Virus record (IMG/VR): IMGVR_UViG_3300017697_002808
Coordinates: 1 to 29,081 of that record
DNA: 29,081 bases
Direction: 5' to 3' (one strand)
Source of the DNA: a virus
Shown here: in pieces, positions 1-25,022 of the stretch
Layout of the letters: each line of letters begins with the position of its first letter
Position numbering within the stretch: the stretch's first letter is position 1
Made by a program: the position numbers and the translations under genes
The notes under the pieces: model-generated
The model's database searches: none
Seen by the model: only the letters and a program-made list of their open reading frames with translations
Told to the model about the DNA's origin: nothing

Positions 1-1661
1 AATGTCCATGAAACTCCATCTACGTCATCTTTTGCCTCTAAATCAGCACATCCTGCAACAGGACAGAAATTGTTAGAGCTAGCGAAAAGAAGTTGATCCT
101 CTGGCTGTCTGCTCTCCATGTCAATAGTATCGTAACGTACTCCTGCAAGAATACTGAGACCATTGTTCCATACAAAATCTCCCATTACAGCAAACCCTAA
201 GTTTGTGTACTCACCGATATAATACTCGGTGTAATCATCATCAATTTGAGTGGCTAGAACTCGCTTTGACAAGGCTGTATTTTGTGGCTGTGACAAGTCA
301 CGTCGCCCAAAATATTCATTAGTGTAGTCATCTCCATGCTCGAAGTCAGTATGACGAATCGAAGGAGAAACTTGAACAGAAGCTGACATGCTATCAAAGT
401 CATATGTCTTTGACAGTATCACCTTATTCTCAACTACCCAACTTTCATGAAATTGCGAGAAACCATACGCATTTTCATTCAAGTTGTCATAAGACTCATA
501 GAACAACTGGTTCTTGATCTCCCAGTCATTATCCAGTGCTACAATTACATCGAAATATAACGTAGTAACTGTATTTTCTAGTAAGTCTTCTGGGTCTACT
601 AAAACTTGGTTTCCTTTTAGCTTAGTAAGCCCAGGATTTATTAGTGCAAGTGCAGACGTATCGCCTACAAACACTTCTAAATCCGCCAGAGTCTCTACAG
701 ACCCCGGAGTGAGTGCTCCACCAGCAGCCCCGCTTAAGAAATCAAACCTAAAAGGATTGAAATTCGTAAAACCACTGCCATCAGTATCGTACTCTTGGTG
801 AGATACTTTACCATCTCCATTAACATCAAGAGAAGCCGGAGATCCTGTAATGTATGTCCCATTATCAATTAAGTCTTGGGTGATTCGGTTCCACCCTGCT
901 ACTTGGTTACCCGAATAGTCATGATACATACCTCCAAACTGCAAGCGAACTCTATCTGTAATATCCATATCAAAGGATGTTTGAAATAGATTTTGCCCCA
1001 CTCCAGAGTTGTCATAATAACTATCTGAGTCTTCTACTTCTGTGTAGACATAATACCCTAGATCCCTACCTAATATAGTAGCTGGTCCGCCTACTTCAGC
1101 AGTTAGAATACTCTTACCCCAACTACCTGTAGTATACGAAAAACTACCTTCTGGCATTTCAATAAATTGTCCAGTCTCTTCTATACGCGCCGACTTAGGA
1201 TTGAAGTTTAAGTAACCACCAATCTTAGAAGGGCCATATATAGGAGAAGCTGGGCCTCTTACTATATCTACTCTATCCGAAGCACCAATAGGTGTTGGAT
1301 AGTTTCCTGGATTGTCCAAACGACGCACACCTCTAAAGTATGTTTCGCCTGGAGTGCCTCGTACGTCTAAGCCGCCCGCAACTCCAAAAAATGATTGAGT
1401 AAAGCTGCCGGGGGCTAGTGCAACTAACTCATCGATATCTTGCATGTTAAAACGATCCATCATCTCTTCCGAGATAGTAGAAGCAGATCGTGGAGTCTCT
1501 AGTATGGACTTATTAAATCCAAATACAGACTTTACACTCTCACCTGGTAAACTACCGAGATCGCCTTTAACTACAATTTCTACCATTTCTTGTGCAGAAA
1601 CTTGGGAAATACTTCCTAGCAGTACTGCGCTTGCCATAAAACTTTTCACAAAGCGGTTCAT
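1..1661 (-). CDS. TonB-dependent outer-membrane receptor (partial, runs off the left edge)
   Basis: The frame is open from an ATG at 1661 to base 1 (about 553 codons), so the C-terminal barrel is missing. Residues 1-23 look like a Sec signal peptide ending V-S-A before Q24. A possible TonB box (EIVV, about 28-31) follows. Residues about 55-160 match a TonB plug: ETPRSAST near 55, a receptor-typical RG..YFRG stretch at about 101-111, and DRVDIVRGPASPIYGPSKIGG at about 129-149. The rest is barrel-like, with alternating and aromatic residues. An EF-hand-like loop (D279, N281, D283, E290) sits in the barrel part. In bacteria this family imports siderophores, haem, cobalamin or glycans. The start overlaps the stop of the 55-aa gene (TAATG) and has an AGGAGG-type SD, so it belongs to the phage nrd operon. 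The substrate is unknown; a role in superinfection exclusion is also possible. Confidence 0.93.
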   Translation of the reverse strand, partial: MNRFVKSFMASAVLLGSISQVSAQEMVEIVVKGDLGSLPGESVKSVFGFNKSILETPRSASTISEEMMDRFNMQDIDELVALAPGSFTQSFFGVAGGLDVRGTPGETYFRGVRRLDNPGNYPTPIGASDRVDIVRGPASPIYGPSKIGGYLNFNPKSARIEETGQFIEMPEGSFSYTTGSWGKSILTAEVGGPATILGRDLGYYVYTEVEDSDSYYDNSGVGQNLFQTSFDMDITDRVRLQFGGMYHDYSGNQVAGWNRITQDLIDNGTYITGSPASLDVNGDGKVSHQEYDTDGSGFTNFNPFRFDFLSGAAGGALTPGSVETLADLEVFVGDTSALALINPGLTKLKGNQVLVDPEDLLENTVTTLYFDVIVALDNDWEIKNQLFYESYDNLNENAYGFSQFHESWVVENKVILSKTYDFDSMSASVQVSPSIRHTDFEHGDDYTNEYFGRRDLSQPQNTALSKRVLATQIDDDYTEYYIGEYTNLGFAVMGDFVWNNGLSILAGVRYDTIDMESRQPEDQLLFASSNNFCPVAGCADLEAKDDVDGVSWT

Positions 1662-1828
1662 TATTGTGTCGCCTCCTCCTGCGATACTTGCGGCTGCATT
1701 TGTGGAGCCGCTTGATTTTGAATAGAAGTTATAAGATTCATACTTACCTTAGCAGGTAGTTCCGCCAAGCCTTGTATGATAGTATTAGTCTCTTCTATAG
1801 TTAATTGTAAATCTATTTTGTCGTTCAT
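1661..1828 (-). CDS. Small conserved-looking phage protein, 55 aa
   Basis: This 55-residue ORF begins MNDKIDLQLTIEETNTI and ends in a Gln-rich tail. It has an acidic/amphipathic N-terminal part containing LTIEETN and GLAELPAK, and no membrane segment or cysteine. Its ATG overlaps the nrdB stop (ATGA, 1825-1828) and its TAA overlaps the receptor ATG, so it is translationally coupled on both sides. The end of the gene carries the AGGAGGAGG that serves as SD for the receptor. From memory, similar short proteins with the pattern LTIEETN..L..L.ELPAK occur in many marine phages; I could not check this. Function unknown. Confidence 0.82.
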   Translation of the reverse strand: MNDKIDLQLTIEETNTIIQGLAELPAKVSMNLITSIQNQAAPQMQPQVSQEEATQ

Positions 1829-2784
1829 TTAAATATATCCTGCCAGTTCCCTGTAGTGCTTGCCCGAGAATACTCGGTAGCCCTGTTCTCAAAGAAATTA
1901 GTGTGCTCTACTCCGTTTAACATGTAGTCTAACCATGGTAAAGGATTCGCCTCACTTCCAAATATTTTCTTCAAACCCAGCCCTAATAACCTACGATCTG
2001 CAATGTAGCGAATGTACTCTTTTATTTCTTCTGCTGTTAGATCAGGTACTTCTGCACCCTCAAAACAGAGGTTAATAAAAGCATCCTCTAGCTCTACGGT
2101 GCGTTCTGCTGCACAGTAAATTTCATACTTTAGATCATCTGTCCATAGTTGTGGGTTTTCCTGTACAAAAGATCGGAATAAGTGTGACATGCCTTCGACG
2201 TGTAAAGTCTCATCTCGAACTGACCATGTTACAATTTGTCCCATACCTTTCATAAGGTTATGCCTTGGAAAGTTCAATAGAATAGCAAAACTACTAAACA
2301 GTTGAACTCCTTCGGTAAACCCTGAGTATATTGCCATTGTTTTAGCAATATCCATAGGAGTTTTCATACCGAAGTTACCAAGATACTCGTGTTTATCAAG
2401 CATTTCTTTATGCTCGAAAAACTTTTGGTACTCATCATCCCTAAAGCCTAATGTCTCTAGTAATAGTGAGTACGCTTCTTGATGCACCGCTTCCATAGCT
2501 GCAAAAGCGGAAAGCATCATTCTTACCTCAGGCTGCTTGAACGTAGGGAGGTAATGCTTTGCATACCCACAACATACATCTACGTCAGCCTGTGTAAAGA
2601 ATCTAAAAATCTGTCCTAATAATCTCTTATTAGCCGGAGACATCTTCTCCCGATAGTCTCGTAAATCATCTGCAAGGTTAACTTCATCAGGTAGCCAATG
2701 CATATGCTGTTGTTGTTTATAATACTCAAAAGCCCACGGATAATTGAAAGGCTTGTAATACTCTCGTTCTTCTAATAAATTCAT
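1825..2784 (-). CDS. nrdB: Ribonucleotide reductase class Ia, beta (radical-generating) subunit
   Basis: This 319-aa protein holds the di-iron/tyrosyl-radical site that starts NDP reduction by NrdA. The whole metal site is visible with the same spacing as E. coli NrdB: D67, E98, H101, E158, E192, H195, with radical tyrosine Y105 seven residues after E98. The C-terminal tail (NWQDIFK) is where the NrdA-docking peptide should be. At 319 aa it is somewhat shorter than E. coli NrdB (about 375 aa). The start has an AGAAGGAAA SD. It lies after nrdA and a small membrane gene in one operon and overlaps the next ORF by ATGA. It should be an active iron-dependent enzyme. Confidence 0.97.
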   Translation of the reverse strand: MNLLEEREYYKPFNYPWAFEYYKQQQHMHWLPDEVNLADDLRDYREKMSPANKRLLGQIFRFFTQADVDVCCGYAKHYLPTFKQPEVRMMLSAFAAMEAVHQEAYSLLLETLGFRDDEYQKFFEHKEMLDKHEYLGNFGMKTPMDIAKTMAIYSGFTEGVQLFSSFAILLNFPRHNLMKGMGQIVTWSVRDETLHVEGMSHLFRSFVQENPQLWTDDLKYEIYCAAERTVELEDAFINLCFEGAEVPDLTAEEIKEYIRYIADRRLLGLGLKKIFGSEANPLPWLDYMLNGVEHTNFFENRATEYSRASTTGNWQDIFK

Positions 2785-2794
2785 CTATTTCCTT

Positions 2795-2959
2795 CTACCA
2801 ATTATGTACTATGTTTGTCATAATAAAAAAACAAGTTATAAAATTAACTAAAACAATAATAGTTCTTAGTATAGCTACTATATTATCATGTTCTGCTGTC
2901 TTTTCATCTGAAAAACTACCAATAGTGTACTTCCAAATAGTCCATAGCTTAGCCTTCAC
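2795..2959 (-). CDS. Small single-pass membrane protein between nrdA and nrdB, 54 aa
   Basis: The GTG at 2957-2959 lies inside the last codons of nrdA and is preceded by AAGGA about 10 nt upstream. A longer version of the frame would run deep into nrdA, so the GTG is preferred. The protein starts VKAKLWTIWKYTIGSFSDEK, then has a hydrophobic helix (about residues 30-48, IVAILRTIIVLVNFITCFF) and a short tail ending HNW. It fills the whole nrdA-nrdB gap. I recall similar small proteins with a GSFSDEKT motif beside nrd genes in marine phages, but cannot verify it. Function unknown; a membrane anchor or regulator is only a guess. Confidence 0.75.
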   Translation of the reverse strand: MKAKLWTIWKYTIGSFSDEKTAEHDNIVAILRTIIVLVNFITCFFIMTNIVHNW

Positions 2960-4718
2960 AAGCCAAGCATCCTTCGTCGTCAATACTATCAAATATATAC
3001 TGTCGCAATACTTCGTCAGATACATTTTCTGCCCGTTTCATTGCTTCGCTTCTAAGATAGTATAGAGTCTTTACTTTCTTCTTCCAAGCCATCATGTGTA
3101 TAGCGTGTAACTCTTGCTTTGACACATTAGACGGAAAGAATATATTCAAAGACTGACTCTGGCATATCTCCTCTTGTCTATCTGCTGCCATCTCAATAAC
3201 CCATCTCTGGTCTATCTCAACCGCAGTTTTAAATACTTCTTTTTTCCATTCATCCAGAAAATCTAGATGCTGTACTGATCCACCGTTAGTAATGATACTT
3301 TTCCATACTTCATCAGTGTCTTGATCTATTTCTTGAAGCGCGTGTTCTAAGTACTCGTTCTTCAATAAAGAAGATCCCGATTTAGTCTTCTGTGTAAACG
3401 CGTTAGCCCTGTAAGGCTCAATGCTGGGAGAAGTATTACCACAAATAATACTACTGCTAGCGTTAGGAGCCACAGCCAACAAATGAGCATTCCTAACATT
3501 AGCGCTAGATCCATCAGGACAAGCGCCCCGCTCTTCAGCCAATTTTTCGGTTGCATCTTTTGCTTCTCCTTTAATATGCTTGAACATCTTAATGTTCCTG
3601 CTCTTTGCCATAGCACTCTCAAAGGGAATGTCGTGACGTTGTAAATAGGCATGAAAACCCATAGCACCTAGTCCTAGGCTTCTCTCTGCTTTTGCACTAT
3701 TTACTGCTTTCCAGAGTTCTGGAGGTGCTGTATCACAGAAGTAAGTTATCACATTATCTAGCATACGGATAAGATCAGGGATGAAGTCTTTATTGTTTTT
3801 CCACTCATCATACTCTTCTAAGTTTACACTTGATAGACAACATACTGCTGTACGCTCACTATTGGTTGCGAGTGTAATCTCGGAGCATAGGTTAGAGTGA
3901 TTAACTTTCAAGCCTAAGTCTTTCTGAAATTCTGGGAGAGCGTCTTGTACCGTGTCTTTAAACATGATATAAGGCTCGCCTGTTTCAACTCTGTTCTGGA
4001 TTAACTTCACCCATAACGTTTTAGCAGATACTCTCTTTGTAACTCTTCCTGAATGTGGGTCGATTAAGTCCCATGAATCGTCAAAACCTTCTATTCTGGT
4101 AGCTTGTTCTATGATATCCATAAATTTATCATCAATAATAATACCATGATGTAAATTAACAGATTTTCGGTTAACATCGCCGCCTGTAGGTTTACGAACA
4201 TCCAGAAACTCTTCGACTTCTGGATGAGATATGTCCAAATACGCTGCATAACTTCCACGTCTTGTTACTCCTTGAGAAAATGCTAACATTTCTGCGTCTA
4301 CTACCTTCATAAAAGGTATAACGCCTGTACTTTCTGACCCACTAGAGGTTTTTGAGCCTACTGAACGTATATCGCTCCAAGAGCCCCCAACGCCACCACC
4401 CACACTAGATAAGAAGGCATTCTCAGTGTAATGCCCGGTAAGTCCTTGTCTGCTGTCCTCAACATAATTAAGAAAGCAACTAATAGGCAGCCCACGGGAT
4501 GTTCCACCATTAGAAAGTATAGGAGTAGAAAACATGAACCAAAGTTTACTAGCATAATCGTATAGCCTCTGTGCGTGTGAGTCATCATCAGAAAACGCCT
4601 TAGCTGCTCGTGCAAATGCATCTTGGGGAGATGTTTCCCCGTTCACTAAGTATCTGTCTTCTAGTGTTTTAAGACTGAATTCAGACAGGTATTTGTCCCT
4701 GCTGTACATAATTTTCAT
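2949..4718 (-). CDS. nrdA: Ribonucleotide reductase class Ia, alpha (catalytic) subunit, no ATP-cone
   Basis: This 589-aa subunit reduces ribonucleoside diphosphates using the NrdB radical. Visible active-site features are C81 in GLPISC, the N-x-C-x-E triad N276/C278/E280 (NLCSE), C293/C294 as partner of the redox pair, a Tyr-Tyr radical relay pair in KTLYYLR near the C-terminus, and a C-terminal CLAC disulfide-exchange tail (C584, C587). E. coli NrdA is about 760 aa. Here the protein begins directly near the catalytic core and lacks the N-terminal ATP-cone, so dATP feedback through that domain should be absent. Its ATG overlaps the exonuclease stop (ATGA). Confidence 0.97.
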   Translation of the reverse strand: MKIMYSRDKYLSEFSLKTLEDRYLVNGETSPQDAFARAAKAFSDDDSHAQRLYDYASKLWFMFSTPILSNGGTSRGLPISCFLNYVEDSRQGLTGHYTENAFLSSVGGGVGGSWSDIRSVGSKTSSGSESTGVIPFMKVVDAEMLAFSQGVTRRGSYAAYLDISHPEVEEFLDVRKPTGGDVNRKSVNLHHGIIIDDKFMDIIEQATRIEGFDDSWDLIDPHSGRVTKRVSAKTLWVKLIQNRVETGEPYIMFKDTVQDALPEFQKDLGLKVNHSNLCSEITLATNSERTAVCCLSSVNLEEYDEWKNNKDFIPDLIRMLDNVITYFCDTAPPELWKAVNSAKAERSLGLGAMGFHAYLQRHDIPFESAMAKSRNIKMFKHIKGEAKDATEKLAEERGACPDGSSANVRNAHLLAVAPNASSSIICGNTSPSIEPYRANAFTQKTKSGSSLLKNEYLEHALQEIDQDTDEVWKSIITNGGSVQHLDFLDEWKKEVFKTAVEIDQRWVIEMAADRQEEICQSQSLNIFFPSNVSKQELHAIHMMAWKKKVKTLYYLRSEAMKRAENVSDEVLRQYIFDSIDDEGCLACEG

Positions 4719-5970: not shown

Positions 5971-7764
5971 TTACTCCAATTTACTTATATTTTCTTCTTT
6001 CACTACTTCGATTTTATCGAGAAGTGGATGTGTCCATTCGTGAGATACTATATAAGTGTTCAAATCTTCGTTGATAAGAACTTCTATCAGCTTCTCTCTA
6101 CCTGTGTCATCTAATACTGCAATGACTTCATCTAAGAAAAGTATATTGAGTTTAGACTTAGATATGCTACTCATTAACTTACGAATAGCTATCAGGGTGG
6201 CAGTATTTACTCTTGCTAGCTCTCCTGAAGAAAGTGCGAGAATATCTACTATTTTACCGTTGTCTGTAACCTGCACATTTAACTTGTCATTAGATACTAC
6301 GAACTCGAGTGTAAACCTACCATCAGATAGCTCTGCAAGATAGGTATTCGCGAGTTCTTCCAACTCTTTTACAAGGTTTTCAATCTTGTACGCGAGCAAA
6401 CCATTGGTACTAAACGCTTTCTTCAGTATATCCAAATTGGACGCAAGATCCTGCTGTGTATTTAGCTTCTCTTGCATTTCTGAAAGTTGGTTTAGGAACT
6501 CTTCTGTTTGCTCCTGTATTACTTGGATTCTTGTGTTGTGCTTTGTTCTTCTTTCGTTTTCCTTTGCTGTGCTTCCCAACTGCTCTTTGCGTTGAAGTAG
6601 CTCAGCTCGTACTCTCTCCAACCTTTCTTCAAGCTTTGCTTTCTCCAAGAGATGCTTAGGGAGACTCTTGTCAATACTTCGATAAATTTCTTTCCAATCG
6701 TTTTCAAGGTTCTGAATACGAGTGAATTCGTTATTATCTCTTTTAATCTGTTTAATTCGTCTTTCAATTTCATAAATCTGCTTCTCCGATTCGAGCATCT
6801 TTCGAGACTCTGTGTCTACAAGAGACTGTTTAAAACTTGGATCAACTTCTTGTTCACAAGTAGGACACACATCTCCTAATTGTTCTAGTTTTGCTACGAG
6901 GCGTTTAGACCCCGCTGCGATTTGAGAATGGTTTCCCATCTCTGTTTGTAAGTCGTCATAGGACTGTCGTTGCGTTACTGGCGTATTTTGTACTTCCTGT
7001 AAATCAATTTGTTCCAGCATGTGAATCATTTGATTATTCTTAGAGATTTTTTTGTTTTTCTCCAAGATATTTTCAATTTCTTTCGTTAAAGTGTGGAACT
7101 CTTTCTCTTCTTCTTCCGTAGAAATTTCTAAATTTAACATAGGAAGTATATTGGTATCACTCAATTTGTTATCTGAGAGCCATTTTTCTATGGTACTAAC
7201 GGCGGATTGAACCCCCATCATTTCCTGCGTTATGTCTTTAGACTTCTCTTTGAACACCTCGAATAGGTTTACATACCCTTCAAGATGTAACAGATCAATC
7301 AAAAATTTCTTACGGTTTGTATCGGTCGCAGTTAAAAACTGTAGACTCGCATTAGTGCTTTGGTATACTAGCTGTGAGAAGGTTTTAAAGTCTACACCTA
7401 TAACATCTTGAATAGTCTTGTAGGTATTTGTAGCTGTATGGCTAGATATATCTTCACCATTCTTCTCCAACTTGACCTTTACCGTGGTTTTTCTATCTAT
7501 ACTCACTGTATAGGTATCTTCGTCCTTGGTAAAGGTTAGTTGTATATTATACCCATTACCGACGTATCGGTTAGGTATGTCTGCTTTCTTAATTCCTTTC
7601 GAATTTTTATTGTACAGAGCTTCTTCTATAATTAAAGGTATAGAAGACTTGCCAGTACCGTTTGTACCAATAATTTGAGTTACAGTGTTATCATCTAAAA
7701 CTAACGCGTTGTCGGAACCATAGCTAAAGCAATTATTCCAGTGTAGCTGTTTGAGAGTAATCAT
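5971..7764 (-). CDS. SbcC/Rad50-like recombination ATPase (T4 gp46-type)
   Basis: This 597-aa SMC-like ATPase partners SbcD/gp47 to process DNA ends for recombination-dependent replication. It has a Walker A at 33-40 (GTNGTGKS), long Glu/Lys-rich coiled-coil stretches at about 170-290 and 310-450, a zinc-hook CPTC (C300, C303) between them, the ABC signature LSSGE (511-515), and a Walker B ending D545-E546 followed by the D-loop. The size matches T4 gp46 (about 560 aa) and not bacterial SbcC (about 1050 aa). Its start lies inside the gp47-like gene (32-nt overlap), which suggests coupled synthesis of the two subunits. Confidence 0.95.
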   Translation of the reverse strand: MITLKQLHWNNCFSYGSDNALVLDDNTVTQIIGTNGTGKSSIPLIIEEALYNKNSKGIKKADIPNRYVGNGYNIQLTFTKDEDTYTVSIDRKTTVKVKLEKNGEDISSHTATNTYKTIQDVIGVDFKTFSQLVYQSTNASLQFLTATDTNRKKFLIDLLHLEGYVNLFEVFKEKSKDITQEMMGVQSAVSTIEKWLSDNKLSDTNILPMLNLEISTEEEEKEFHTLTKEIENILEKNKKISKNNQMIHMLEQIDLQEVQNTPVTQRQSYDDLQTEMGNHSQIAAGSKRLVAKLEQLGDVCPTCEQEVDPSFKQSLVDTESRKMLESEKQIYEIERRIKQIKRDNNEFTRIQNLENDWKEIYRSIDKSLPKHLLEKAKLEERLERVRAELLQRKEQLGSTAKENERRTKHNTRIQVIQEQTEEFLNQLSEMQEKLNTQQDLASNLDILKKAFSTNGLLAYKIENLVKELEELANTYLAELSDGRFTLEFVVSNDKLNVQVTDNGKIVDILALSSGELARVNTATLIAIRKLMSSISKSKLNILFLDEVIAVLDDTGREKLIEVLINEDLNTYIVSHEWTHPLLDKIEVVKEENISKLE

Positions 7765-12325: not shown

Positions 12326-12355
12326 ATTTTACTAGTTGTGTTATCCAATAGTCAA
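12326..12355 (-). promoter_or_regulatory. Possible promoter for the phoH/helicase block
   Basis: TTGACT (12350-12355), an 18-nt spacer and TAAAAT (12326-12331) on the minus strand give a moderate sigma70 match. It overlaps the iscU stop and leaves a leader of about 65 nt before the 44-aa ORF. It is weaker than the eight perfect promoters. Confidence 0.42.
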
Positions 12356-12732
12356 GATTCACCGTTCTTTTCTCTATAATTCTTTATAGCGGCTTTTATT
12401 GCATCTTCTGCAAGCACGCTACAATGAATCTTCACAGGGGGAAGGGCTAACTCTTCGGCTATCTCAGTGTTTTTTATTACACCTGCTTCGCTAAGAGTTC
12501 TGCCTTTTACCCACTCCGTCAAAAGAGAAGAAGAAGCTATAGCACTACCACAGCCATAGGTTTTAAACTTGGCATCTTGTATAACGCCTTCTTCTACTTT
12601 TATTTGTAACCTCATCACATCGCCACAGGAAGGCGCTCCCACCATGCCTGTACCGACATCATCAGTCTCATCCATTTTGCCTACATTACGAGGGTTCTCA
12701 TAATGATCCATTACTTGGTTACTATATGCCAT
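12352..12732 (-). CDS. iscU: IscU/NifU-like iron-sulfur cluster assembly scaffold
   Basis: At 126 aa the protein is as long as bacterial IscU (128 aa). All cluster-site residues are present: C36-G-D38, C61 (YGCGSAIASSS) and H103-C104. The HscA-chaperone recognition motif LPPVK is intact at 97-101, so it should dock on the host HscA/HscB and IscS machinery. The most likely role is transient [2Fe-2S] assembly for phage or host clients during infection. GGAGG lies 9 nt upstream of the ATG. It follows a membrane-protein gene and PolA, and no other isc genes are nearby. Confidence 0.94.
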   Translation of the reverse strand: MAYSNQVMDHYENPRNVGKMDETDDVGTGMVGAPSCGDVMRLQIKVEEGVIQDAKFKTYGCGSAIASSSLLTEWVKGRTLSEAGVIKNTEIAEELALPPVKIHCSVLAEDAIKAAIKNYREKNGES

Positions 12733-18191: not shown

Positions 18192-18920
18192 TTAGGAAGC
18201 AGCTTTCTCTTTCTTTGCAGCTCCATCATAGTCTGACGCTGTCAGGCCACGACGGGTAAGCATAGTTTTGACGCCTCGTGCAGTTTTACCGATTTGCTCT
18301 GCAATCGACTCAACTGTCATTTCAGACACATCGCCCAACTCAGCCAAAGGATCTTCCTTTGCAGAGCCTTTTGTATGCTCCTGACGGGGGATAGCGTCAA
18401 TGTCGCCGGAACGAAGAAGGCTAAGAGCCTTGCCTCGAATACTGTTTACAGTACGGTCTAACTTCTCTGCGATTGCTTCCACAAACGCTCCGTCATTAAC
18501 CATAGCTACGAAAGTCTCTTCTTCTGAAGGAGAGTAAGTTCGTACAGTCTCCACTTTGGGAGCAGCTTTGACATGGTCAGTAAGTTCCATAGAAAGAATC
18601 TTACCTTGAATAGACTTAGCACTAAATGCTCCGCCTTCAAAGTGAGATGCAATCTCTGCGTAGGTATACTGTCCGCTGTTGTCAGAGACAAAAGCAGAGA
18701 GAGTAGTTTCTTGGCTGTCGCTGAAAGCGCGAGCGCTCTTAGCTGAAGCAAGTTCTACATCAAAACCCATCTTTCGCAGTTTGCTAGAAACTGACCGTGT
18801 AGTTGTGTCAAGCTGGTCTGCAGCTTCTGCTACAGTAGCTTGAGAGACCGGAGTCTCATCACCGACAAAATTAGTGAGCTCGTCGGTACGCTCATCAGTC
18901 CACTTAGGCAGTGTTGCCAT
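18192..18920 (-). CDS. Multi-repeat HTH/Myb-like DNA-binding protein, 242 aa
   Basis: At least four related helix-turn-helix-like units can be read: about 5-50 (WTDERTDELTNF, TTRSVSSKLRKMG), 66-115 (YTYAEIASHF, AKSIQGKILSM), 128-168 (YSPSEEETFVAM, VEAIAEKLDRTVNSIRGK) and 195-233 (TVESIAEQIGKTARGVKTML). Each follows E/T-I-A-E-x-L....R-S-V-..K-L. The C-terminus is Lys/Ala-rich. This suggests binding to repeated DNA sites, perhaps the shared promoters, or genome compaction. It is not a known regulator family that I can name. It overlaps the ligase C-half by 17 nt. Confidence 0.75.
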   Translation of the reverse strand: MATLPKWTDERTDELTNFVGDETPVSQATVAEAADQLDTTTRSVSSKLRKMGFDVELASAKSARAFSDSQETTLSAFVSDNSGQYTYAEIASHFEGGAFSAKSIQGKILSMELTDHVKAAPKVETVRTYSPSEEETFVAMVNDGAFVEAIAEKLDRTVNSIRGKALSLLRSGDIDAIPRQEHTKGSAKEDPLAELGDVSEMTVESIAEQIGKTARGVKTMLTRRGLTASDYDGAAKKEKAAS

Positions 18921-19674
18921 TTGTTTCTCCTAAAAAATTTAATAGATTGGTTACTATTGTTACGCCAGAATTTCTGGCTTTCTTTGTTTTTGCACTCTCT
19001 ATACCACTCTCATTAACTAGAATGGTTACATCTTTTGTTACACTGCTTTTGACATTGTAACCTTGTAAGCAGAGAGCGGCGGTTGCAGCACTCTTAGTAG
19101 GAAAACTTTTTAACTTACCACTAATACATACTGTACCAACAGCCTCTACTCTTTCCTTGGCTTTAGCAAACTTAAAATCAAATGGTAAAAACTCAAAATT
19201 ATTAATCCATTCATTTTCGTACCAATCCATTAAACTCTCAGCAGTCTTAGCTCCAAGACCAGCGTCACGACATTTGTCCATGCTAAGCTCATTGAGGCCG
19301 CTAATTATTGTGGACAATTTCTCTGTTGCGGTTTTTCCCACTAAGGGTATACTAAAAGCTGGTAGTAATTGGTTTAAGGTAGCTTTCTTACTATGTTCAA
19401 TTTCTCTTATAAGTTTCAAGGCTAGTTTATCTGAGGAGAGAGCAATCTGTGTAAGATCGTAGTCAAGCGCATATACTTCCCATAAGGTCGTAATTGACAG
19501 CTTTTCTATAGTCTTTGGCCCAAGTCCCTTGATTTTTAAGGTCTTGGCAAAATGCTCAATCTGCTTACTAATTTGTGCAGGACATTGAGAGTCCTCACAA
19601 AAAAGTAAGTCGTTTCTCCACACAAGTACAGAACCGCATGAACCACAAGTAGTGGGGGCTAGTATCGCTTGCAT
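18904..19674 (-). CDS. NAD-dependent DNA ligase, C-terminal half (Zn-finger, HhH, BRCT)
   Basis: This 256-aa protein holds the parts of LigA that follow the OB domain. A four-Cys zinc finger (C10, C13, C26, C31) comes first. Helix-hairpin-helix repeats follow (IKGLGPKTIEKL at about 48, FSIPLVGKTATEKL, then AGLGAKTAESL), then a BRCT domain from about 178 (GTVCISGKL). It has no adenylation domain and needs the product of the gene at 19739-20692. T5 also encodes its NAD ligase as two polypeptides. Start: AGGAG then ATG, 26 nt after the -10 of P3. Confidence 0.9.
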   Translation of the reverse strand: MQAILAPTTCGSCGSVLVWRNDLLFCEDSQCPAQISKQIEHFAKTLKIKGLGPKTIEKLSITTLWEVYALDYDLTQIALSSDKLALKLIREIEHSKKATLNQLLPAFSIPLVGKTATEKLSTIISGLNELSMDKCRDAGLGAKTAESLMDWYENEWINNFEFLPFDFKFAKAKERVEAVGTVCISGKLKSFPTKSAATAALCLQGYNVKSSVTKDVTILVNESGIESAKTKKARNSGVTIVTNLLNFLGETNGNTA

Positions 19675-19700
19675 TGAGACTCCTCTGAAATTGAAAGTAT

Positions 19701-19729
19701 ATTATATAGAATTTTGAGATTATTGTCAA
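19701..19729 (-). promoter_or_regulatory. Perfect sigma70-type promoter (P3) for the ligase C-half
   Basis: TTGACA (19724-19729), 17 nt and TATAAT (19701-19706) on the minus strand, inside the gap between the ligase halves. The spacer has TTGA-N8-TCAA. Leader sequence and length nearly duplicate those of P2. Confidence 0.88.
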
Positions 19730-19738
19730 GATTTATTT

Positions 19739-20692
19739 TTAGTTAACTCTTCGGACAATACGCGGGATAATTTCACCACTGCGTATGACTTCGACCTCGC
19801 AACCAATTTCTAATCCTAACTCTTCGATGTAAGACATATTATGCAGGGTTGCTCTTTGTACAAGCGCGTCACCAATCATTACAGGGCTAAGAATTGCTAC
19901 TGGTGTAACAACTCCTGATTTCCCTGTGTGCCACTCAACATCTTTTAGCCAAGTTATCTCACCTTCTTTCTGCTCTTTGAAAGCAATAGAACCCCGTGGA
20001 TGATGTGCAGTAAATCCTGCGTCTTCCCAGTCTTGTAGATTATCAAGTCTGTAGACTACGCCATCTGTGGGGAACTTCTTTGACTCAAGGTCTGTAGTAT
20101 CTGTATAAAACCCAAGATTGTAACAATAATTAAGTTTCTCACTCCAGTATTCAAACATATCATCTGGTCGCATATCATGCACTACAAAAAATAAGTAAGG
20201 TCTTCGTTCTATGAACTCATCCTCGCTTTTGAGATTTAACGCACCCGCTGCAAAGTTTCTTGCATTTGGAATATCACTTGGTGCTACTACTTCACCGTCA
20301 ATCTGACAGTAATCACTATGGTTAATTCTCCAAGGGACTGTTTGTAGATGACGTACATTTGCTGTAATGTCAACACCTGTTTTACCGTCCCCACGGCTGG
20401 TAGCTCGTACTAGCATCCCATTCTCATAAACGAGAGATATGGCAGCACCGTCTAGCTTGGGTGTAGCAACAACATTTTTGTCGCCCATCCAATCCAAGAC
20501 TTCTTGCTCTGAAAAAGATTTCTTCAAAGAATACATAGGAAAGATGTGGTCAACGCCTCGACTGGGAGTATAACCAACGTCTTTGTCAGTGCCTTCTAAA
20601 GCATCCCACTCTTCATCACTTAGAGGGCTTTCACCGTCTTCGTAATAAAGTTTGGCTATCTTGTTCCTGTATGCGTAATCTATATCTGTCAT
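19739..20692 (-). CDS. ligA: NAD-dependent DNA ligase, N-terminal half (adenylation and OB domains)
   Basis: This half carries the nucleotidyl-lysine motif KLDG (K79 counted from M at 20692), SRGDGKTGVDITANV, IDGEVV, DGVVYR and FKEQ, followed by an OB-fold (SGVVTPVAILSPV to IIPRIVRRV). It activates with NAD and seals nicks together with the C-half. The N-terminal Ia domain is short. Two ATGs are possible. The first (20704) has no SD and only about 6 nt of leader from promoter P4. The second (20692), chosen here, has GAGAG upstream and about 18 nt of leader. It ends 65 nt before the C-half and has its own promoter. Confidence 0.93.
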   Translation of the reverse strand: MTDIDYAYRNKIAKLYYEDGESPLSDEEWDALEGTDKDVGYTPSRGVDHIFPMYSLKKSFSEQEVLDWMGDKNVVATPKLDGAAISLVYENGMLVRATSRGDGKTGVDITANVRHLQTVPWRINHSDYCQIDGEVVAPSDIPNARNFAAGALNLKSEDEFIERRPYLFFVVHDMRPDDMFEYWSEKLNYCYNLGFYTDTTDLESKKFPTDGVVYRLDNLQDWEDAGFTAHHPRGSIAFKEQKEGEITWLKDVEWHTGKSGVVTPVAILSPVMIGDALVQRATLHNMSYIEELGLEIGCEVEVIRSGEIIPRIVRRVN

Positions 20693-20716
20693 AGGTTCTC
20701 TCATTTATTAAAGTAT

Positions 20717-22245: not shown

Positions 22246-22883
22246 ATCTTATTTAGATTAACTCCATACTCCTCTAAGTGAGAGAGCTTGCCCAGTTCAC
22301 AGGCGAGGACAAAGGCATAATAGCCACCGACAGTATCATTTTCTGTATTTTCCAGAATATATACTCGGTATCCTTTACTTTCATATTTGTTCTTTACTGT
22401 TATTTCTGCATCTACGATTGCAGGTGCGTGGTACTTTGCTGACCATACTTTCTCACCCGCGTTGAACGTGTCTGCTACACAATTCTCAGGAATTATACTA
22501 GGATGAACGCGCTCCTCTTGGCTTGCAGGTCGTTGTGGCACTCCTACTTTGTCGAGTATTCCACGCACAAAACCAGACGACCGATACAACCCCGCAGCTA
22601 TTTCGGAGATAGACTCTCCTTGCAAATAGTTTGTTATAGCTTCAGTTATCTCGTAAGCCTGAGCTTTTTTACCTTTGTTTGTAGCTTTTCGTTTTGCTAC
22701 ATACTCTTTATGCTCTTGGAACTCTGTTATGATCTTATTCAATCTCGTAGTGTTGTACGAGATGTTAAGTATCTCACATGCTTCCTTTTTCGTGATGGCC
22801 TTTTCTTGTGAGAGCAGTCCTATCACTTTCTCTATGTTCGTGTTCGTTAGGTTCTCGTAGTCCCTTTTCTTCACTCTCGGCAA
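22242..22883 (-). CDS. HTH-domain protein, 213 aa, TTG start
   Basis: TTG at 22883 with GGAGG 9 nt upstream. Residues about 1-50 hold a helix-turn-helix (KKEACEILNISYNTTRLNKII). Residues about 75-118 hold a second (ITNYLQGESISEIAAGLYRSSGFVRGILDKVGVP). A C-terminal beta-rich domain follows (AGEKVWSAKYHAPAIVDAEI, GYRVYILE, GGYYAFVLACELGKL). It looks like a sequence-specific DNA-binding protein with a sensor or oligomerisation domain. The first 110 nt overlap the MazZ-like gene in another frame, an unusually long overlap. Similar two-HTH proteins occur in marine phages as I recall, unverified. Confidence 0.72.
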   Translation of the reverse strand: MPRVKKRDYENLTNTNIEKVIGLLSQEKAITKKEACEILNISYNTTRLNKIITEFQEHKEYVAKRKATNKGKKAQAYEITEAITNYLQGESISEIAAGLYRSSGFVRGILDKVGVPQRPASQEERVHPSIIPENCVADTFNAGEKVWSAKYHAPAIVDAEITVKNKYESKGYRVYILENTENDTVGGYYAFVLACELGKLSHLEEYGVNLNKI

Positions 22884-23199
22884 TTAATTCATCCTCCAAT
22901 TTAAATAATAAACAACACATAGCATGTGCAAGGTGTGATAACCCTGTTTCTTCGTCTGCACTTTCACCATCTATGTGTGCGAAAATATGTCTCAAAGCAG
23001 CACTAGTATACCTATTCTGTAGGTCGTCTACTTTCCTCCAGTTGTGAGGATCGTACTTCTCTGCTCCAAATGTTAATACTTTTCCTATTTCGTTTATAGA
23101 CTTAGGAGGCAACAAATACAACTGCGGCTTGCCTCCGTCATACTTTCTTCCGTACTCTAAGTTCTTCATGATTTCAAGTAGTTCATCTCCTTCCGACAT
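22774..23199 (-). CDS. MazZ-like dATP/dGTP diphosphohydrolase (formerly DUF5664)
   Basis: This 141-aa protein has the family pattern: KYDGGKPQLYLLPPKSINEIGKVL, FGAEKYDPHNWRKV, RYTSAALRHIFAHIDGE, and DEETGLSHLAHAMCCLLFKLED, with Glu/Asp/His metal ligands in helices. Relatives hydrolyse dATP/dGTP to monophosphates and, as MazZ, support diaminopurine (Z) genomes; many phages have the gene without using Z. No purZ is in this window. The C-terminal tail (about 35 aa) is charged and overlaps the next gene. The ATG is coupled to the 66-aa gene (TAATG). Confidence 0.82.
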   Translation of the reverse strand: MSEGDELLEIMKNLEYGRKYDGGKPQLYLLPPKSINEIGKVLTFGAEKYDPHNWRKVDDLQNRYTSAALRHIFAHIDGESADEETGLSHLAHAMCCLLFKLEDELIAESEEKGLREPNEHEHRESDRTALTRKGHHEKGSM

Positions 23200-24010: not shown

Positions 24011-24367
24011 TTAGTCGTCTACGTCAGGTTGTGTGTCATCTCCTACTGTTCCATCGTACCCTTTGAACCTATAGTATACAGTTATTTCTTCTCCTCTCAT
24101 AATAGGTTTAATGATGTGTAATACTCTGTCTCCTTTGTCAGTCGCAATGTAACCATTCGGATCATCACTATGATTAATAAAACCTCCTAGTGGGGTTCTG
24201 ACCCATTCATGTCTATCCCGATTATGTACTAACACATGGGTTTCGCCTAATACAGTTCCTGCGTACAGATACTCACTAGCGTGTAATCCTAAGCCATCAA
24301 TTGGACTCGATTGGATAGTAGCTGCTTTGGGCAAAGGTCTGTACGTCTTTTCATTAAACGTCTTCAT
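24011..24367 (-). CDS. SET-domain protein (putative protein lysine methyltransferase)
   Basis: This 118-aa protein has the compact SET pattern: SPIDGLGLHASEYLYAGTVLGE, GGFIN65H66S67DDPN (the SAM-binding NHS..PN knot), and RGEEITVYYR with the conserved Tyr. It therefore probably methylates a lysine on a host or phage protein using SAM. It lacks pre-SET, and the C-terminus is a short acidic tail. It starts within the end of thyX (14-nt overlap) and ends just before promoter P6. The target is unknown. Confidence 0.85.
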   Translation of the reverse strand: MKTFNEKTYRPLPKAATIQSSPIDGLGLHASEYLYAGTVLGETHVLVHNRDRHEWVRTPLGGFINHSDDPNGYIATDKGDRVLHIIKPIMRGEEITVYYRFKGYDGTVGDDTQPDVDD

Positions 24368-25022
24368 ATGCTTTTATTACACTTGGAAAGTGCGTTCCTA
24401 TAATATCCCATGCACTTTCTGCAATAATCTGGTGCTCTTTCTGTGTTCCGTTTGCTTTTCTTAATTGACAGTAATGTATCCAACTTCTCAATGTTCCAGC
24501 CATGTACAGTGTAGTGCCTGTCAATCCTTCGGGAAGAACTGCCCTGGCCTGCTCTTTAGCAATACCTTGCTGTAAAGCCCACTCATATACTTCTCGAGTT
24601 TGTCGAAGAGCTTGAGTCTGCTTCATGTTCCACGCCTCTTGCAACATACGATCTTCCTTCACTCTACAGTCCATATCAATACTGTTCTGTCGGTTCTTTG
24701 GATCTTGGTATCTAGCTTCTCGCTTTTTAAAAGTGTTAGACACAGCGTATCGCTGGCTAAACTCTTGATAAGAGAAGCTACGGTGTCTTACTATCTGGTG
24801 AGAAATGTCTCTGGTTGTGTGAATTGCCATCGTTATAGATACCATTTCAAACGGGCTCCAGTGTTCATTTTTGATTAGATACTTAAGCAACCCCGCTGCG
24901 GTTTTACTATTACTCTGATTGTCGGGGTTACTTACTCTAGCGCAGTAAGCTATGAACTCATCTGCGGTGTGACAATCTGTTAATGCTGATGGTTTACTGA
25001 GTGCTACTAATTCTACGTTCAC
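24354..25022 (-). CDS. thyX: Flavin-dependent thymidylate synthase
   Basis: This 222-aa protein makes dTMP from dUMP with FAD and methylene-THF. The ThyX signature RHRxxSxxxxSxR is intact at 79-91 (R79-H80-R81, S84, S89, R91). EHWSPFEM (53-60) matches the FAD/dUMP-binding HxSxxE region, and the C-terminal QLRKANGTQKE region carries Arg/Gln contacts. The start is GTG at 25022, next to the lysozyme stop. It supplies thymidylate together with NrdAB. Confidence 0.96.
   Translation of the reverse strand: MNVELVALSKPSALTDCHTADEFIAYCARVSNPDNQSNSKTAAGLLKYLIKNEHWSPFEMVSITMAIHTTRDISHQIVRHRSFSYQEFSQRYAVSNTFKKREARYQDPKNRQNSIDMDCRVKEDRMLQEAWNMKQTQALRQTREVYEWALQQGIAKEQARAVLPEGLTGTTLYMAGTLRSWIHYCQLRKANGTQKEHQIIAESAWDIIGTHFPSVIKAYEDV

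Follow-up and report, generated by a model that had tools for sequence, protein, structure and literature searches.

A host-derived TonB-dependent receptor gene in a phage ribonucleotide reductase operon and its possible role in purine uptake

Introduction

Why would a phage carry the gene for an outer-membrane transporter in the operon that encodes its ribonucleotide reductase (RNR)? The question is raised by IMG/VR record IMGVR_UViG_3300017697_002808, analysed here over its whole length of 29,081 bases (the window), in which nearly every gene lies on the minus strand and the run of phage genes ends with nrdA, a small open reading frame (ORF), nrdB, a 55-amino-acid (aa) ORF and a gene for a TonB-dependent receptor (TBDR). 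Phage DNA is usually viewed as being built from recycled host DNA and the cell's own synthesis. The initial annotation of the window suggested that the receptor could be buying iron or another nutrient for the infected cell, or could be replacing a surface receptor to block superinfection. Based on the gene order, the relatives of the receptor and the setting of its bacterial orthologues, we consider it probable that the gene encodes a host-derived TonB-dependent purine importer, expressed with the phage RNR from a swappable slot and raising the purine supply for phage DNA.

Results

The receptor gene belongs to a conserved phage operon

The genes in question, with the ribosome-binding site of the receptor gene, are arranged as follows.

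3 to 1661, minus strand: TonB-dependent receptor; ATG at 1661, 553 aa present, 3' end lost at the contig end
1672 to 1680, minus strand: strong Shine-Dalgarno sequence AGGAGGAGG of the receptor gene
1661 to 1828, minus strand: 55-aa ORF, overlapping the nrdB stop and coupled to the receptor gene downstream
1825 to 2784, minus strand: nrdB, class I RNR small subunit, with metal-ligand motifs and radical tyrosine
2795 to 3025, minus strand: small ORF (phrog_1679) with a hydrophobic stretch; its true start is probably closer to 2959
2949 to 4718, minus strand: nrdA, class I RNR large subunit, short form of 589 aa, with its all-alpha domain from residue 11

The ATG of the receptor gene shares bases with the TAA of the 55-aa ORF (TAATG), and AGGAGGAGG lies upstream at 1680-1672, confirming the translational coupling proposed at the outset. 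The 5' part of the gene is complete and encodes a signal peptide, a TonB-box-like EIVVKG, a plug domain (PF07715, E 3.6e-12) and most of the barrel. Among viral contigs, 21 loci were found to encode the receptor, with identities of 61-98%. One of them, L004, lies on the sister contig G002 (41.9 kb), which matches nearly the entire window at ~94-98% DNA identity and extends ~11 kb beyond the receptor gene, into opposing tail-fibre genes. The receptor encoded there is complete: its 816 aa comprise a signal peptide, a TonB-box-like motif and a plug within a C-terminal barrel, and the terminal residue is aromatic (the protein ends YNF); complete copies in relatives measure 813-816 aa and have F as their final residue. 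No receptor copy contains an internal stop. As for the truncation raised as a concern in the initial annotation, the contig end does cut the window copy, but the gene is whole in relatives, and a truncated pseudogene is ruled out by these complete, stop-free copies.

The order nrdA, nrdB, small ORF, receptor is common to L004 and ten further contigs, together called lineage A (L002-L010, L012 and L021, with L005 and L021 cut inside the receptor), and the 55-aa ORF is kept in relatives at 52-83%. Independent contigs run through the junction near 1661 at ~96.6, 89, 80.6 and 76% DNA identity, which excludes a chimeric join and, likewise, a chimeric contig or host fragment. The placement of a TonB-type receptor inside a phage RNR operon is therefore real and conserved, and relatives do carry it beside nrd genes.

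The contigs have a clear phage character, with tail-fibre and structural genes adjoining the receptor in relatives and, within the window, genes for lysis and for replication. The ratio of nonsynonymous to synonymous substitution rates (dN/dS) of the receptor is 0.035-0.058 (~0.05), similar to that of nrdA, over divergences that nearly saturate synonymous sites. Conservation is highest in the plug, in phages as in cells, and by inspection the signal peptide and TonB-box motif of the mature N terminus (...SQVSA-QEMVEIVVKGD) are kept in phage and cellular copies alike. These comparisons indicate a host-derived gene held under purifying selection on true phage contigs. Among cultured phages no close relative of the receptor was found; there were five matches only, at 22-34% identity, and four of them lie on 'Acinetobacter phage MD-2021a' records bearing bacterial-type gene names.

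Bacterial orthologues lie among purine genes

Scanning bacterial genomes yielded 56 loci, one viral (L040) and 55 bacterial (L041-L095). L040 (PAAM01000024.1) is a contig of a metagenome-assembled genome (MAG) labelled Rhodobiaceae; because it is 99.5% identical to phage locus L012, we take it to be viral sequence in a MAG and not a host gene. The 55 bacterial receptors, mostly from MAGs of marine Gammaproteobacteria by title, are homologous to the phage receptor at 56-78% identity and full length in most cases. They are chromosomal and flanked by purine enzymes and permeases, whereas the phage copy stands alone after nrdB. Recurrent neighbours are a deaminase with a visible signal peptide, a NUP-family protein with a lipoprotein-like signal peptide, a cytosolic adenosine deaminase, PuuE allantoinase, allantoicase, ureidoglycolate lyase, NCS2 and AzgA-like permeases and purine phosphoribosyltransferases. 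Pfam and NCBIfam models identify NUP (PF06516, E 1.4e-103) and PuuE (TIGR03212, 3.8e-155), and likewise adenosine deaminase, allantoicase, ureidoglycolate lyase and NCS2.

Purine genes lie within ~5 kb of the receptor at 46 of the 55 bacterial loci, compared with 0 of 40 loci for other TBDRs, sampled at regular intervals along a list from six genomes of the same order. The bacterial loci are not mutually independent, so that the Fisher p of 2e-18 overstates the certainty, but the contrast itself is plain. The secreted adenosine deaminase and NUP are the commonest neighbours (39/55 each). Taken by themselves, L041-L095 represent a purine-gene-associated TBDR family that is widespread and well conserved in marine Gammaproteobacteria. 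With regard to the phage copy, this bacterial gene neighbourhood supports the suggestion of another nutrient and predicts purines as the ligand, most likely a purine nucleoside or nucleobase.

Repeated capture and the slot after nrdB

The same receptor family, at ~59-64% identity, occurs without adjoining nrd genes in a second set of phage loci, lineage B (L013-L020 and L022, the last a short plug fragment at 90% identity). One of its contigs, G011, is tailed-phage-like, with a terminase and very long tail genes. The bacterial family tree encloses the phage receptors over their full length; lineages A and B form one clade each, nested within different bacterial branches, and lineage A is 73-78% identical to its nearest cellular relatives. 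Forcing A and B together lowers the log-likelihood by 394 (approximately unbiased test, p-AU 1.5e-38), and on this tree the two lineages captured the receptor family independently. Ahead of the lineage B receptor, L014 has a 12/12 match to the sigma-70 consensus with a 17-base spacer (5979-6007; a sequence match only). L015 and L019 show similar sites.

The slot behind nrdB was surveyed at 79 loci whose NrdB is 87-100% identical to that of the window. At most of them the small ORF is followed directly by opposing genes, many tail-fibre-like. The NrdB tree contains two clades in which the slot, wherever a contig extends far enough to show it, nearly always holds an outer-membrane barrel: the purine-family TBDR, a different TBDR of 756 aa (L131 and L133, as well as L287 and L289) or a porin of the TorF family (L107, L118, L138, L145, L150 and L152; together with the TBDR in L002). 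L122 and L149 hold the purine-family TBDR, their second-TBDR label being a cross-match of one gene at 24.5% identity. The putative porins (TIGR02001/PF09694; for example L026 8620-9192, L107 5124-5708 and L002 4899-5483) stand directly after the TBDR or replace it across both phage lineages, and their bacterial matches are only distant (31-40%). The L131 receptor begins with the same residues, MSRVIKLF, as the purine-family receptor of L007 and L012, a pattern that exchange of cassettes behind a shared leader would produce.

The L131-type receptor belongs to another family. No match was found in 21 bacterial genomes at E 1e-120; in a wider search the best bacterial homologues had 42-61% identity, and each of the ten examined has at least one purine gene nearby. 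At L202 these are purine phosphoribosyltransferase-like genes, guanine deaminase, hydroxyisourate hydrolase, OHCU decarboxylase, ureidoglycolate lyase and allantoicase, at L203 NUP and the secreted deaminase, and at the eight other loci AzgA-like permeases. On this evidence marine phages have captured TBDRs at least three times, from two families, and all of them appear purine-linked. Since six genomes tested encode 22-53 plug-domain proteins each, three such captures are unlikely to be chance; we estimate a probability below 1e-3 if one or two receptors per genome are purine-linked. A nutrient role finds its strongest single argument in the fact that separate phages drew distinct receptors from one metabolic setting.

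Nucleotide and other genes of the window

Three further genes bear on nucleotide and iron metabolism.

12352 to 12732, minus strand: IscU Fe-S scaffold (TIGR01999, 8.5e-64)
22774 to 23199, minus strand: dATP/dGTP pyrophosphohydrolase-like (phrog_801)
24354 to 25022, minus strand: ThyX thymidylate synthase (TIGR02170)

Together with nrdAB, ThyX and the pyrophosphohydrolase make up the nucleotide genes of the window phage, a set that we count in favour of purine supply. In lineage B, polyphosphate kinase 2 (PPK2) is encoded a few kb from the receptor (L026 2733-3353 and L019 4813-5466). NrdAB of the window shows the marks of class I RNR, namely the NrdA barrel, the NrdB metal ligands and the radical tyrosine. 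Because the window IscU is 82-88% identical to that of receptor-bearing bacteria, these bacteria fit as hosts of the phage. A similar IscU gene is present in lineage B contigs L034 (11284-11661) and L035. The window also encodes a T5-like DNA polymerase A, primase, DnaB-like helicase, NAD-dependent ligase, an SbcCD-like pair, flap exonuclease, PhoH, an endolysin and Rz-like spanins. The ligase is seemingly split over two minus-strand ORFs (18904-20704), one with the adenylation and OB parts and the following one without a Pfam match.

Discussion

If the receptor is a purine importer, it would be exported, inserted into the outer membrane and driven by the host TonB-ExbBD, moving scarce purine nucleosides or bases into the periplasm. 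The secreted adenosine deaminase, the NUP-family protein and the NCS2/AzgA permeases of the host could then take them onward, and the product would join the nucleotide pool, from which phage NrdAB, presumably expressed together with the receptor, would make dNTPs. The phage would thus contribute the outer-membrane step only, the remaining steps being those of the host. The place after nrdB would act as a cassette slot that accepts purine-linked TBDRs of two families or a TorF-family porin. Whether it is in addition a dedicated uptake slot, repeatedly filled with purine-linked TBDRs so that DNA synthesis is fed from external purines, is in our view evenly balanced.

Several points weigh against this proposal. 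Purine specificity is read from gene neighbourhood, and the purine probe set was derived from the same bacterial neighbourhoods in which it was counted. No purine gene was found near the receptor at 9 of the 55 bacterial loci, although some loci are short, and of 38 phage loci none holds purine cluster genes; NUP, sought in viral contigs, gave one weak fragment and nothing further. Because the phages carry none of the later steps, any benefit would depend on a host that has them, and within the time of a lytic cycle a new importer may not repay its cost. The slot is not exclusively linked to purines, being occupied also by the porin and, at five other loci (L136, L143, L153, L155 and L156), by a 2OG-Fe(II) oxygenase. 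Finally, the structure model, built from 24 sequences, is poor (mean pLDDT 59), and no ligand was read from it.

The main rival is superinfection exclusion or surface remodelling, by which the phage's own copy of a receptor used by rival phages, or a crowded outer membrane, would shut the cell to them. Phages classically use TBDRs as receptors and have other ways of blocking them: Cor of phi80 and N15 acts on FhuA (PMC11436027), and the complex of T5 Llp with FhuA (PDB 8a60) is among the structural matches listed for our model. Cor and Llp resemble the present system in that phage genes deal with a TBDR during infection, but they are small blockers of the host receptor, not receptors themselves. 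Close relatives also differ in which of several outer-membrane barrels fills the slot, with the TorF-family porin standing behind the TBDR in lineage B as well, and such variety (two TBDRs and a porin) would mirror different rival receptors. However, a chance pick among the 22-53 TBDRs of a genome would rarely be purine-linked in all three captures. The plug and the TonB-box region are conserved, and divergence from the host versions is not especially high in the predicted loops (a ratio of 1.48, compared with 1.35 in strands, a test limited by the poor model). A host-like receptor would, moreover, add adsorption sites and not remove them. We therefore regard exclusion as unlikely, though it is the alternative that fares best.

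A receptor that is purine-linked but has another true cargo, such as fragments of extracellular DNA or RNA, nucleotides, or a degradation product of the urate or allantoin type, seems distinctly improbable. The bacterial clusters do hold genes for urate and allantoin degradation. The two commonest neighbours nevertheless indicate nucleosides, the activity of NUP being deduced from its family, and DNA synthesis would gain nothing from urate or allantoin.

Iron or siderophore uptake, feeding the di-iron NrdB and other iron proteins, was the first suggestion of the initial annotation, and we now hold it to be very unlikely. In its favour are the intact NrdB motifs (D43, E98, H101, Y105, E158, E192 and H195, the metal-ligand roles of which we assume from class I R2 proteins in general), the IscU gene, and siderophore receptors as the best-matching general models and folds. 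The claim that every ligand is intact stands, but at the level of sequence the motifs would suit Fe or Mn. The curated cut-off of the TonB-siderophore receptor model TIGR01783 is missed (123.8 versus 223.5 bits). Foldseek's top matches to the structure model are TBDRs of generic resemblance, at 9-15% identity, and solved structures include no relative closer than generic TBDRs. The orthologues adjoin purine genes, and upstream of 51 bacterial copies there is no enrichment of Fur boxes (7.9 mismatches versus 8.2 in shuffles, a comparison made without a positive control). An iron or siderophore receptor was rejected on the score, the bacterial context and the Fur-box result taken together. Passive cargo, a host gene acquired by chance and carried without selection, could account for the patchy presence of the receptor and for a slot that is empty or otherwise filled in most of the wider nrdB group, but it is hardly credible given the strongly disfavouring dN/dS, intact frames in all copies, conserved coupling and repeated independent capture.

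Returning to purine import as the preferred explanation, we note that uptake genes as such are already known from phages. Cyanophages carry the phosphate-binding protein PstS, likewise a component of nutrient uptake that tops up a host system, but a periplasmic one for phosphate, neither located in the outer membrane nor powered by TonB. Phage PA-2 encodes the Lc/NmpC porin, a full outer-membrane transport protein; unlike the TBDR it is a passive porin that serves lysogenic conversion with receptor replacement, and it has no link to purines or to an RNR operon. Closest in type is the marine megaphage Mar_Mega_1, for which a putative SusC-type TBDR was noted as a proposed auxiliary uptake gene (PMC9723777); it is another type of TBDR, with carbohydrate uptake proposed, and the passage on it describes neither an RNR link nor repeated capture. 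Marine environmental viral genomes bearing IscU have also been described (PMC5332604) and share with the window host-type metabolic genes, IscU included, although the term TonB is absent from the main text of that paper. In the literature searched, which left most subscription journals outside its coverage, we found no description of the L041-L095 receptor family, of a purine TBDR, of a phage-encoded receptor like this one, or of RNR coupling and repeated capture.

If the purine proposal is true, an infecting phage would draw building blocks for its DNA also from the surrounding sea, perhaps from lysed neighbours, and viral lysis would be linked to purine cross-feeding among ocean microbes. 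TonB-dependent receptors would gain a viral role beyond that of entry doors, and a ligand class, purines, would be indicated for two marine bacterial receptor families.

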